A stretch of 64,000 nt of DNA from Puia sp. GTDB taxonomy: Bacteria > Bacteroidota > Bacteroidia > Chitinophagales > Chitinophagaceae. The DNA is taken from positions 1 to 64,000 of the forward strand of contig JARLGZ010000108.1 in the NCBI GenBank assembly GCA_031292515.1, read 5' to 3'. Below are positions 1,078 to 23,673 of the stretch, in pieces. Numbering within the stretch: the first letter of the stretch is position 1; the number at the start of each line of letters is the position of its first letter. The notes under the pieces were generated by a model that saw nothing but the letters and a program-made list of their open reading frames with translations, had not been told where the DNA came from and ran no database searches. The position numbers and the translations under genes are program-made.

Positions 1078-2178
1078 CTATAATTGAACGACCTGGCAGG
1101 GGATAGACAGGTGATCCAATTGCCTTTCGATACGTCCGGGATGAGTATCGGTGATGAAGATCTGGCCTTTGTTATGGATACATACCCGGTCAAGGAGGTT
1201 GTGCATTCTTTGCTCATCCAGTTTTTCGAATACATCGTCTAAAAGCATCAGCGGGGGGAAACCTTTGGCCTCCTTCAGCATTTCATATTCAGCCAGCTTC
1301 AGGGCGAACAAAAGGCTTTTGCGCTGTCCCTGGGAAGCAATGTTTTTAAAGGATTGTTCCCTGAACCGGATCTCGATATCGTCTTTGTGGATTCCGCCAC
1401 TTGTCCTTTGCAACAGCAGATCCCTGCTTCGGAACCCGGACAGGAGTGCCGGAAATGCCGTCTCGTGTAATTGACTGTCATAAGCCAGTTCGATCGGCTC
1501 TTCCCCGCCGGCGATACCGGTATACAATTGTCTGACCAGGGGCAGCATCTTTTGCAGGAAAGAAGCCCTCTGTGTGAACAGGTAATCACCCGGTCCTGCC
1601 AGTTGACTGTCGTAGACATCGAGCAGGCTCAGGTCCTTTGTCTTCATTTCAGATACCGATTTCAGAAAGCCGTTTCTCTGCTGCAGGATCCTGTTATATT
1701 CGATGAGACTTTGCAGGTATTTGGGATTGAGTTGAGAACACAGGGCATCCAGGAAGCGCCGCCTCTCTTCGCTGCCTTCAGAAATGATCCGGATATCATC
1801 CGGGGCAATAATAACACAGGGAAACCGGCCGACGTGTGCCGAAAATCGCTCATAGACTTCTCCGTTCAGGGAAAATTCCTTTTTCCCCGTCTCCCGGAGG
1901 ATACAGATGGCCCTGAAATCCGCTCCGTTCTTCTCAAAATGGCCTTCTATCCGGAAACCTGCATGGCCGTGGTGCACATTCTGCTGGTCGGATTTGGCAA
2001 AATAGCTCTTGGTGACGCAGAGATAGTAGATGGCATCCAGCAGATTGGTTTTACCGATGCCGTTCCTGCCGCTCAGGCCGATGACCCTTTCCCTGAATTC
2101 GAAAGCGGCTTTTCCGTAGTTCTTGAATTGTACGAGCGATATGTCTTTTAGTCTAAGCAACCCCCAATATTCGGTCAA
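1078..2178 (-). CDS. recF: DNA replication and repair protein RecF
   Basis: The protein has 366 aa, normal length for RecF, an SMC-like ATPase that helps load RecA at single-strand gaps. The N-terminus carries the strand VQFKNY and Walker A GRNGIGKTN (residues about 37-45). The C-terminal half has the ABC signature SQGQRKSL and a Walker B LMLLDDVFEKLD. There is no ATG start: the frame opens with TTG at 2176-2178, and a second TTG at 2158-2160 would give MLRLKDIS..., closer to the usual RecF start, so the true start may be 2160. It diverges from pdhA and heads a minus-strand group with the membrane-anchored protein and DUF721. Confidence 0.95.
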   Translation of the reverse strand: MTEYWGLLRLKDISLVQFKNYGKAAFEFRERVIGLSGRNGIGKTNLLDAIYYLCVTKSYFAKSDQQNVHHGHAGFRIEGHFEKNGADFRAICILRETGKKEFSLNGEVYERFSAHVGRFPCVIIAPDDIRIISEGSEERRRFLDALCSQLNPKYLQSLIEYNRILQQRNGFLKSVSEMKTKDLSLLDVYDSQLAGPGDYLFTQRASFLQKMLPLVRQLYTGIAGGEEPIELAYDSQLHETAFPALLSGFRSRDLLLQRTSGGIHKDDIEIRFREQSFKNIASQGQRKSLLFALKLAEYEMLKEAKGFPPLMLLDDVFEKLDEQRMHNLLDRVCIHNKGQIFITDTHPGRIERQLDHLSIPCQVVQL

Positions 2179-19782: not shown

Positions 19783-22173
19783 CTAGGCGCTGCAAGTGAC
19801 GCAACCTTCCTCCATGCTGCAAGTCGGGCCGGCGGCGATGGTGTCGTCAGCCTGTCCCTCTACGACCTTAAGATTGTGTTGGTTGACCAATGGCTCCACC
19901 ATTTTGCCACCCTGCTTTTCCACGGTGAACTGGACGGCCTGGGAGGCCGCCTGCGTACGCAAATAGTACATGCCTGTCTTCAGCCCGCTTTTCCAGGCGT
20001 AGAAATGCATGGAAGTGAGTTTGCTCGCCGAAGGAGTCTCCACGAAGAGGTTCAGCGATTGTGACTGGCAGATATAAGCGCCTCTGTCCGCTGCCATATC
20101 GATGATGTTCCTCTGTTTGATTTCCCATACCGTTTTATAGATCTCTTTGATGGATGCCGGTATCTCTTCGATACGCTGGATCGAGCCGTTGTGGGAGATG
20201 ATCCGGTTCTTCATCTCGTCGCTCCAGAGGTTCAGCTCGACCAGGTCCTTTAACAGGTGTTTGTTTACTACTACGAATTCCCCGCTCAATACCCTTCTCA
20301 CATAGATGTTGGAGGTATAGGGTTCGAAGCATTCATTGTTACCCAGTATCTGGGAAGTGGAAGCCGTGGGCATAGGCGCCACGAGCAGGGAGTTGCGGAC
20401 GCCGAATTTTATGACTTCATCCTTCAGCCGGTACCAGTCCCAGCGAAGCGTGGGCTCTACATTCCACATATCGAACTGGAAAATGCCTTTAGAAGCCGGG
20501 GAGCCCGCAAAGGTCTCGTAAGGGCCCTGTTCCTTTGCCAGGTCCTTCGATGCCGTCATCGCTGCAAAATAGATGGTCTCGAATATTTCCTTGTTGAGCT
20601 TCTTGGCCTCATCGCTTTCAAAAGGCAGACGCAACAGGATGAACGCGTCCGCCAGGCCCTGGACACCCAGACCGATCGGCCGGTGTCTGAGATTGGAATA
20701 CCGGGCTTCTTCTATCGGGTAGTAGTTGTGGTCGATGATCTTGTTGAGATTGCGGGTCACTTCATAAGTGACTTCATACAATTTGTCATGATCGAATTTA
20801 CCTTCTTTTACATAGCGGGGAAGGGCCAGGGAAGCCAGGTTGCATACCGCCACCTCATCGGGCGAGGTATATTCCATGATCTCCGTGCAGAGATTGGAAC
20901 TCTTGATTGTACCGAGATTTTGCTGGTTGCTTTTGCGGTTGGCGGAGTCTTTATACAGGAGATAAGGCGTACCCGTTTCGATCTGCGCGTCCAGGATGGC
21001 AAACCAGAGATCCTGGGCCTTGACGGTCCTCCTGGCTCTTCCTTCCGCCTCATAACGGATATACAATTGCTCGAATTCTTCTCCCCAGCATTCGGCCATA
21101 CCGGGCGCTTCGTGCGGGCAGAATAGGCTCCAATTGCCATTCTCTTCGACCCTTCTCATGAACAGATCCGATATCCAGAGCGCATAGAAAAGGTCCCGTG
21201 CCCTCATTTCTTCCTTTCCGTGGTTCTTACGCAGATCCAGGAACTCGAATATATCTGCATGCCAGGGCTCCAGGTATACCGCGAAAGCCCCTTTGCGCTT
21301 TCCGCCTCCCTGGTCTACGTACCGGGCGGTGTCATTGAAGACGCGCAACATGGGGATGATTCCGTTGCTGGTCCCGTTGGTGCCTCCGATATATGAACCG
21401 GTGGCGCGGATATTATGAATAGAGAGGCCGATGCCGCCGGCGCTTTGTGAAATCTTGGCCGTTTGTTTGAGCGTATCGTAGATCCCATCGATGCTATCTC
21501 CCTTCATCGTCAGCAGGAAACAACTGCTCATCTGCGGTTTCGGCGTGCCTGCATTGAAGAGGGTAGGGGTCGCATGCGTAAACCAGCGTTCGCTCATCAG
21601 ATGATAGGTCTTTATGGCGCTGTCGATATCATCGTGATGGATGCCGATGGCCACACGCATGTACATATGCTGCGGGCGTTCCACGACCTTGCCGTCCACT
21701 TTCAGCAGGTAAGATCGCTCGAGGGTTTTGAAACCGAAATAATCGAAGCCATAGTCCCGGTCGTAGATGATGGTGGAATCGAGCAGTTCGGCATGCTCCT
21801 GTATGATGGCCCACACCTCTTCCGATAACAGCGGGGCTGCCTTGCCCGCTTTGTTGTCACGGCATTCATACAGTAATTTCATCGTGCCGGAAAAACTCTT
21901 GATGGTATTCTTATGCAGATTGCTGACGGCAATGCGGCTGGCAAGCAGGGCATAGTCCGGGTGTTTTACAGTCAGGGAGGCGGCGGTTTCAGCGGCGAGG
22001 TTATCAAGTTCCGTCGTCGTTACCCCGTCGTAAAGTCCCTCTATCACTTTTTTAGCGACATCGATGGAGTTTACGAACCGTCTGTCGAGGCCATAACAGA
22101 GCTTCTCGATCCGGGCGGTGATCTTGTCGAATTTTACGGACTCTTTCTTTCCGTGTCTTTTTTCTACATACAT
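19783..22173 (-). CDS. nrdA: Ribonucleoside-diphosphate reductase, alpha subunit (class I)
   Basis: The 796-aa large subunit reduces ribonucleoside diphosphates to deoxynucleotides, using the radical made in NrdB. The N-terminus ([24 protein letters not shown]) is an ATP-cone allosteric domain. The active-site segment [13 protein letters not shown]-like stretch (here [16 protein letters not shown]), the loop [18 protein letters not shown], the central NLCTEI and the [19 protein letters not shown] finger are visible. The C-terminal redox pair is EEGCVTCSA. The sequence is of the eukaryote-like class Ia type common in Bacteroidota. It follows nrdB by 21 bases and lies under the same cobalamin riboswitch. 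Confidence 0.97.
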
Positions 22174-22194: not shown

Positions 22195-23166
22195 TTAAAA
22201 GTCCTCTTCCAGGCTGAACGACTGTGATTCCTTGTTGTTCATCACCCCCGATTTCTGGTAATCGCCTACCCTTTTCTCGAAGAAATTGGTCTTGCCTTGC
22301 AGCGAGATCATTTCCATAAAATCAAAAGGGTTGCCTGCATGGAATAGTTTCGGGTAGCCCAGCTCTGCCAGCCACCTGTCCGCTACAAACTCGATGTATT
22401 GTTGCATCAGCTTGGCGTTCATGCCGATCAGGTCGACGGGTAGGGCTTCGGTAATGAACTCCTTTTCAATTTTCACCGCGTCGCCGATGATCGAATAGAC
22501 GGCTTCCTGGCTGAGTTTCCCGTTGAGCATGCTATAGAGCAGACAGGCAAATTCGCAGTGCAGGCCTTCATCCCGGCTGATGAGTTCGTTGCTGAAGGTC
22601 AGCCCCGGCATCAGGCCCCTTTTCTTCATCCAGAATATCGAACAGAAGCTGCCGCTGAAGAAAATCCCTTCGACCGCTGCAAAGGCTACCAGCCTTTCGG
22701 CAAAATTCCCATTCTCAATCCAGCGGAGCGCCCATTCGGCCTTTTTTTTAACCGCGGGCACCGTATCGATGGCGTGGAAAAGACGATGTTTCTCCTGGGG
22801 ATCTTTGATATAAGCATCGATCAGCAGCGCATAGGTCTCCGAGTGGATGTTTTCCATCATGATCTGAAACCCGTAAAAACAGCGTGCTTCCGGTAATTGC
22901 ACCTCGCTCATGAAATTCACCGCCAGATTTTCGTTTACAATTCCATCGCTGGCGGCGAAAAAAGCCAGTATATGCGAAATAAAGTGACGCTCCCCGACGT
23001 TTAAAGAGGACCAGTCCTTCATATCGCCGCTTAGGTCGATCTCCTCGGCGGTCCAGAAACTGGCTTCGTGTTTTTTGTACATCTCCCACACCCTGGGATA
23101 GTTGATTGGCAGGATCACGAATCGATCCTTATTCTCCTTTAACAATATTTCATTTTCCGCTGACAT
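22195..23166 (-). CDS. nrdB: Ribonucleoside-diphosphate reductase, beta subunit (class I)
   Basis: The 323-aa small subunit carries the di-iron site and tyrosyl radical. The radical region is [20 protein letters not shown], with the Tyr in CFYGFQ; iron ligands come from the Glu and His in [15 protein letters not shown] and [11 protein letters not shown]. The C-terminal SFSLEEDF resembles the tail that docks on NrdA. The sequence is strikingly like eukaryotic R2. It is the first gene of the nrdB-nrdA operon, and its long leader contains a cobalamin riboswitch, so expression should fall when adenosylcobalamin is abundant. Confidence 0.97.
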
Positions 23167-23206: not shown

Positions 23207-23228
23207 TGCCTCAGGAATCACTCCTGGC
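23207..23228 (-). promoter_or_regulatory. Hairpin in the nrdB leader, candidate expression platform
   Basis: On the minus strand GCCAGGA pairs with TCCTGAGGC around GTGAT, about 45 bases before the nrdB start and downstream of the riboswitch aptamer. No T tract follows, so a translational or anti-terminator role is as likely as termination. This is inferred from position only. Confidence 0.35.
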
Positions 23229-23295
23229 AGTTCTCCCATAAAGTCTGCGATAAGTTGAATACAACCAATCCTTGCCGGACCCCATCCGGGGAGGT

Positions 23296-23530
23296 TCCTG
23301 ACAGATAACTGCTGCGGCTGGTCTCCCGGCTCGTAACTATTTTGCCGTCCTTCCCGCTACCGTCGACCTCCTGCTTGCCGGTCGACGGAAACAATGGACA
23401 GGTGAACAGGCAAAATGAGATCATTACTTACAGCCGCCCGACAGACCATGATTCTCAGCGTTCCCGTTTAGCTGATCGAACGGATGGTATCAGGTGGGTT
23501 CGTCATCCGTCCAAACCGTAACAGATATTT
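23296..23530 (-). ncRNA. Cobalamin (B12) riboswitch upstream of nrdBA
   Basis: Read on the minus strand, the leader shows the conserved blocks of the cobalamin aptamer in order. There is a GGACGGATG...CATCCGTTC stem; then TAAACGGGAA with the GAGAATC element (23454-23470); then the B12-box-like GTCGGGCGGCTGTAAGT (around 23430-23446); a perfect 9-bp stem (23360-23388); the GGGAAGGACGGCAAAATAG block (23337-23355); and the 3' block GAGCCGGGAGACCAGCC (around 23315-23332). The aptamer ends about 130 bases before nrdB. In other bacteria B12 elements in front of B12-independent isozymes (MetE, NrdAB) switch them off when adenosylcobalamin is present, so the same logic is inferred here. Confidence 0.92.
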
Positions 23531-23673
23531 AAAACAAGAACTAATGCGAAAGTAATCTCTACCCGCAAAACATACAGTGAAGGTTCTCCACATCCTGTGC
23601 ATAGCTTTTTCCGCCATTATGGGGCGGCTTGCGGACAGCGGATCCGCGGCTTTTTCCGCGCTATTCCGGATAA

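Follow-up and report, generated by a model that had tools for sequence, protein, structure and literature searches.

A divergent cobalamin riboswitch in the nrdBA leader of Puia sp. and recoded kissing loops in its Chitinophagaceae relatives

Does a cobalamin riboswitch govern the B12-independent class I ribonucleotide reductase (RNR) of Puia sp., and which enzyme would take over when B12 is plentiful? The question is raised by the leader of the nrdB-nrdA genes in the window, i.e., the 64,000-nucleotide stretch of contig JARLGZ010000108.1 that was analyzed here. The first-pass annotation of this stretch placed a cobalamin aptamer at 23296-23530 of the minus strand, about 130 bases before nrdB, and proposed a covariance-model search as a check.

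The nrdBA leader and its kissing loop

The cmscan search of the whole window yields a single match at the gathering threshold among 4227 Rfam families. This is the cobalamin riboswitch, RF00174, at 23299-23535 of the minus strand (33.1 bits, E = 1.2e-4), which agrees with the earlier placement to within 5 bases. The aptamer is full length, covering the complete model (1-189 of 189), and its score lies 1.6 bits above the gathering threshold of 31.5 bits. When the 7.34-Mb genome (285 contigs, 99% complete) is searched with RF00174 alone, this match has an E value of 3.2e-6, and two others are found, with 114.4 and 106.5 bits, both on contig C149.

The aptamer is separated by 132 bases (23298-23167) from nrdB, the gap being close to the one first estimated. 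The downstream genes are those that had been named, in the same order and on the same strand, and both products match RNR chain families: nrdB (22195-23166, minus strand) encodes the class I small chain of 323 aa and nrdA (19783-22173, minus strand) the large chain of 796 aa with an ATP-cone. NrdB matches PF00268 (389 bits) and is 93% identical to NrdB of Paraflavitalea sp. CAU 1676; none of the NrdB subclass equivalog models reached its cut-off with the window protein. NrdA matches PF02867 (737.5 bits) and TIGR02506 (735.6 bits).

Homologous elements are found in many relatives. The named set comprises the 80 loci whose NrdB proteins are closest; in 16 of them, an RF00174 match above the gathering threshold lies upstream of nrdB and on its strand. 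Locus L024 was scored negative: its cobalamin riboswitch (1163-1377, minus strand) lies upstream of nrdB on the opposite strand and therefore belongs to another gene. When up to 700 bases before nrdB were scanned in the 80 loci with a loose motif, 15 loci matched, all within the 16 Rfam positives, and no missed riboswitches were revealed among the negatives. In the family sample, NrdB is encoded (E <= 1e-80) in 48 of the 147 genomes. The 47 genomes other than that of the window provide 48 upstream stretches, as G077 contributes two copies, and RF00174 matches of 40.5 to 107.2 bits are found on the nrdB strand in 35 of these stretches, from 34 genomes. Two of the family-sample leaders are identical to named ones (L128 to L021 and L158 to L080; Pseudoflavitalea rhizosphaerae and Chitinophagaceae bacterium DXS), and the leader set used below consists of 48 distinct sequences, after dropping 4 identical ones. 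The nrdB aptamers of L011, L017, L020, L021, L051, and L080 are 130 to 161 bases long and lack the long P6 extension, representing natural short aptamers.

The motif TAnnTTTG serves as a promoter element in Bacteroidota. Its exact form is found near the aptamer start in 17 of the 48 leaders, compared with 1.6 in mononucleotide shuffles. In the window, a candidate -7 box, TACTTTCG, with one mismatch to this motif, is located at 23547-23554 (minus strand); a second one-mismatch candidate, equally good, lies further upstream.

In cobalamin riboswitches, ligand binding is relayed via pairing of the L5 loop with the L13 loop of the P13 hairpin (PMC10653944; PMC10907184). According to the available text of PMC10653944, the L5 consensus is UCCCG, the three innermost pairs of the kissing loop matter, and restoration of pairing rescued function in metE. 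The same text describes docking of L5 on L13 of P13 as the step that transmits ligand binding in P. megaterium metE and in A. halodurans cobT, where L5 reads UCCCG or GCCCG, in contrast to UCGGG in the window.

Comparison of the leaders shows that the window loop consists of CGGG in L5 (23437-23440) and the complementary CCCG in L13 (23287-23290), both on the minus strand, rather than CCCG/CGG, with all 4 of the 4 L5-L13 pairs retained. The P13 hairpin, hand-mapped to 23273-23303 of the minus strand, contains UGUC/GGCA outer, GGA/UCC, and CCUC/GGGG inner stems. In the relatives, the inner stem is mostly CCUU/AAGG, and the pairing survives these changes. In both canonical riboswitches of the same genome, L5 is CCCCG.

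With L13 taken as the letters right after the 5' strand of P13 (CCTT, CTTT, CCTC, or CTTA) and required to start with CG, CC, or CA, which introduces a slight bias toward pairing, standard L5-L13 pairs occupy 176 of the 192 cells (4 in each of the 48 distinct leaders). Permuting L13 among the leaders (10,000 permutations) gives a mean of 127.4, with a standard deviation of 5.3 and a maximum of 147. CCCG combined with CGGA, CGGG, or CGTG accounts for 24 of the 48 leaders and CGGG/CCCG for 11, the window included. The other types are TGCG/CGCA (4 leaders), CGCG/CGCG, CGTG/CACG, and GGCG/CGCT (2 each), along with the mismatched CAGG/CCCG (2) and AGCG/CGCA (1). A non-CCCG loop is present in 16 of 35 nrdB loci, and the loop type changes at least 12 times on the NrdB tree (46 rows, with L163 left out). 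The number of retained pairs and the variety of loop types indicate that the cell conserves the pairing, not the letters.

As a separate observation, G077 encodes two copies of nrdB (L144 and L145), each preceded by a separate cobalamin riboswitch with a loop of the recoded CGGG/CCCG type.

The class II reductase and the supply of B12

The first-pass annotation also suggested that a B12-dependent class II enzyme would be encoded elsewhere in the genome, and that nrdJ and B12 uptake genes should be sought there. Both are present. Contig C137 encodes an 1149-aa protein (L010:5289-8738) with the class II N-terminal domain (PF08471), scoring 1253 bits against NF005122 (cut-off, 859) and 600 bits against TIGR02504 (cut-off, 400); by these NCBIfam models, it is a predicted adenosylcobalamin-dependent class II RNR, NrdJ. 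No RF00174 match was found at E <= 0.05 in the 13 kb surrounding nrdJ. Two canonical cobalamin riboswitches precede genes for B12 salvage and uptake. Based on Pfam matches, the salvage locus on contig C149 contains CobQ-like, adenosyltransferase, CobT-type, and TonB-receptor genes; other open reading frames of this contig were named btuF, btuC, and btuD by appearance alone. Genome searches found neither CbiC nor NrdD. With its salvage genes, no CbiC found, and both NrdAB and NrdJ, this cell seems to be a B12 salvager with two classes of RNR. The N-terminal domain of MetE (PF08267) was not found in the genome search either, so B12 is probably required for methionine anyway, though not for nrdBA. 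The switch would serve conditions of B12 shortage rather than its complete absence.

In the most plausible reading, and quite probably, the cobalamin riboswitch in the nrdBA 5' leader lowers NrdAB when a corrinoid is bound, with NrdJ taking over. Adenosylcobalamin or a related corrinoid would bind the aptamer, in which L5 would then dock on L13 of the P13 hairpin. Docking would lock P13 and bring down the expression of nrdB-nrdA, and as long as B12 is plentiful, deoxyribonucleotides would come from NrdJ. Without the ligand, P13 would be unlocked and NrdAB would be produced.

This arrangement has counterparts in other phyla. The coenzyme B12 riboswitch of Streptomyces coelicolor nrdABS (Borovok et al. 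2006, as cited in PMC4991794) likewise precedes the operon of a class I RNR that does not need B12, in a genome with a class II NrdJ, and shut-off by adenosylcobalamin has been proposed for it. As far as that citation describes the system, the window differs from it in the phylum, the nrdB-nrdA gene order, the recoded loop, and a lesion in P4. The available text of PMC545781 describes B12-elements before nrdDG, along with NrdJ, in the delta-proteobacteria Desulfovibrio vulgaris and Desulfuromonas; there, too, a B12-independent RNR is inhibited in the presence of B12, but it belongs to class III, whereas the window encodes class I. In the Caulobacter metE and btuB case, as presented in excerpts of PMC6538847, B12 lowers a B12-independent isozyme in a B12-scavenging bacterium, the gene being metE rather than nrd. 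This isozyme logic has been widely published for metE (PMC6538847; PMC2211319).

The window element adds a new lineage to an established regulatory type, of which it is otherwise an ordinary example. A literature search of open-licence papers retrieved no report of nrd riboswitches in Bacteroidota or of natural kissing-loop variants. An older comparative survey, by Rodionov, Vitreschak and colleagues in 2003, reportedly may list such cases. What makes the locus interesting are the recoded kissing loops and the association with NrdJ across the family.

In the family sample, NrdJ is encoded (E <= 1e-100) in 129 of the 147 genomes, 125 of them above the cut-off, versus 48 of 147 for this NrdB, which makes NrdJ the common enzyme. 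Class II seems to be the principal ribonucleotide reductase in Chitinophagaceae. The nrdB riboswitch is found in 33 of the 39 NrdJ-positive genomes and in 2 of the 9 NrdJ-negative ones (Fisher p = 6.4e-4). These two come from poor assemblies, G033 (90% complete, 790 contigs) and G144 (69% complete), and leaving them out reduces the latter count to 0 of 7 (p = 3.2e-5). In the named set, which overlaps the family sample and has species in common with it, NrdJ is above the cut-off in 15 of the 16 riboswitch-bearing genomes, compared with 24 of the 64 others (p = 4.3e-5; the fragmented NrdJ in the L026 genome was scored absent).

The link is not exclusive, as there are exceptions both ways. The nrdB riboswitch is absent from 6 of the 39 NrdJ-positive genomes, and in the named set, no NrdJ was seen in the riboswitch-bearing L028 genome (a 2.6-Mb MAG). 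The near-complete G031 and G125 lack an NF005122-type NrdJ and carry a riboswitch before another class I nrdB (L206 and L207, respectively); they may have another type of class II enzyme or follow a different logic. The seven genomes with neither riboswitch nor NrdJ are dispersed over the NrdB tree. An independent-pair test on the tree has 5 usable pairs, on average 2.7 in the expected direction and 0 against, which is too few for significance.

Mode of control and wear of the window aptamer

With about 107 bases between the end of the P13 hairpin and the start codon, simple masking of the ribosome-binding site, as in env8, is inapplicable here. The env8 riboswitch shares with the window a small platform and a P13 loop that kisses L5, but its L13 contains the ribosome-binding site (available text of PMC10907184). 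In P. megaterium and A. halodurans, the platform ends in a terminator, according to the same portion of PMC10653944 that describes docking, whereas the terminator scan found no intrinsic terminator on the minus strand of the window between the aptamer and nrdB; its sole minus-strand hit, 23591-23577, is upstream of the aptamer. The hairpin without a T tract that had been noticed earlier, after which the choice between translation and termination was left open, is indeed present at about 23208-23228 of the minus strand, and neither the sequence letters nor the terminator scan reveal a T run.

Translational control by masking of the start region is possible, if doubtful. In this scheme, the 3' strand of P13 would pair alternatively with a UCUYUUGUC-GURCC element, seen in relatives 26 to 29 bases before the start codon, which can also pair with the start region, and the ligand would favor the masked state. 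The duplex with the P13 3' strand beats 95% of shuffles in 15 of the 48 leaders (2.4 expected), ten recoded-loop leaders place the duplex partner 26 to 29 bases before the ATG, and the pairing is visible in several minimum-energy folds. In part of the relatives, this downstream duplex thus looks like an alternative to P13. In the window, however, there is no support for an anti-P13 pairing that would exclude P13 (z = +0.90), so a conserved alternative switching structure is not shared by the window, and blocking its P13 strand leaves the start region slightly more open (-0.10), not less. Over the leader set as a whole, such blocking has no consistent effect on the openness of the start region (mean difference over 48 leaders, 0.023; p = 0.13), which does not favor start-codon masking as a general rule.

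Transcription termination, which would probably be Rho-dependent given that no intrinsic terminator is visible, is rather unlikely. It would be consistent with the lack of a T tract after the hairpins and with the excess of C over G between P13 and the start codon in 41 of the 48 leaders, but 7 leaders, including that of the window (17 C, 22 G), lack this excess.

The window aptamer itself is worn. The alignment with 12 relatives shows that the 5' strand of the P4 region (23446-23460, minus strand) is short by three bases, with the L4 loop letters kept. Without these bases, helix P4 is unable to form normally, and cmscan flags non-standard pairs in it. The aptamer blocks had been described in the first-pass annotation as occurring in order. 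This holds for the other blocks, which align, but the P4 lesion was missing from that description, and the four-way junction of helices P3 to P6, which includes P4, is incomplete in the window. Membership in RF00174 is therefore a matter of descent and model score, not of an intact P4. The gap may be an assembly error. Relative to the 12 aligned sequences, the A before GGGAA is replaced by C, and CCTGCC is replaced by CCAGCC. Altogether, 7 of the 39 conserved columns are altered in the window, the same number as in L156 and more than in the other 46 of the 48 leaders; three of the seven are changes in P13 that preserve pairing. The score of 33.1 bits is the lowest of 52 nrdB-linked RF00174 matches.

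In view of this wear, the element is considered genuine and probably still functional, and decay is the chief rival explanation. The window copy could be a relic of a working riboswitch that became unresponsive with the loss of P4, leaving nrdBA expressed regardless of B12. The missing P4 bases, the two altered motifs, the low score, and the changed columns would all fit such a relic, as would the fact that MetE was not found, which makes a B12-free lifestyle look unlikely. However, the kissing loop is fully complementary, the P13 pairs survive the letter changes, and L156, as deviant as the window, retains a fully paired kissing loop. In addition, the intact NrdJ should keep the switch under selection. 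A decayed relic is accordingly improbable, and the riboswitch of the window, judged by its sequence, is likely to function at present. Finally, a chance match of the Rfam model, which the margin of merely 1.6 bits might suggest, is contradicted by the riboswitches of the relatives, found at the homologous place and strand with 40.5 to 107 bits, and by the covariation of L5 with L13; such comparative evidence makes it extremely improbable, and the cobalamin riboswitch in the nrdB leader is confirmed as a real observation.

Recoded loops beyond nrdBA

Recoding of the kissing loop is not confined to this nrdB. A search of the 147 family genomes with the L5 pattern CTG-NNNN-GCAACTGT, which the window itself does not fit, finds 37 places in 34 genomes; 14 of these places precede this nrdB. 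Away from it, 11 places have UCCCG and 10 have other letters; two places show a different spacing and look like chance matches. The canonical L5 form is found in 99 of the 147 genomes. The genes downstream were read in 12 of 30 loci and include six metE-like genes, three genes for another class I NrdB, and one each of prpB-like, thioesterase-like, and secreted-protein-like genes. Family searches with the protein beginnings confirmed four of these genes, one of each kind except for the secreted protein. Inspection by eye of the eight recoded loci away from nrdBA (L208, L217, L226, L206, L207, L210, L215, and L214) shows all four L5-L13 pairs in seven of them. Recoded loops thus precede metE, another nrdB, prpB, and two other genes, which suggests that recoding accompanies B12-independent isozymes, but not exclusively.

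It is conceivable, although somewhat short of an even chance, that riboswitches of B12-independent enzymes in Chitinophagaceae (nrdBA, the other class I nrdB, metE, and prpB) have repeatedly recoded L5-L13 with complementarity kept, resulting in several docking pairs per cell. If so, docking would be freed from fixed letters, perhaps tuning the B12 threshold of each gene, and differing loops would perhaps prevent cross-talk between docking elements. The CGGG/CCCG loop of the window, next to two canonical CCCCG/CGGG loops in the same genome, would then be one example. The recoded loops represent a natural mutagenesis set for the coupling of ligand binding to gene control. Prior mutational work on docking used single point changes, and the recoded set allows a test of whether the threshold is set by the letters of the loop. 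For the organisms themselves, the link between the nrdB riboswitch and NrdJ would mean that, in a large environmental family, the choice of ribonucleotide reductase is tied to the supply of B12, with the class I enzyme as an accessory.
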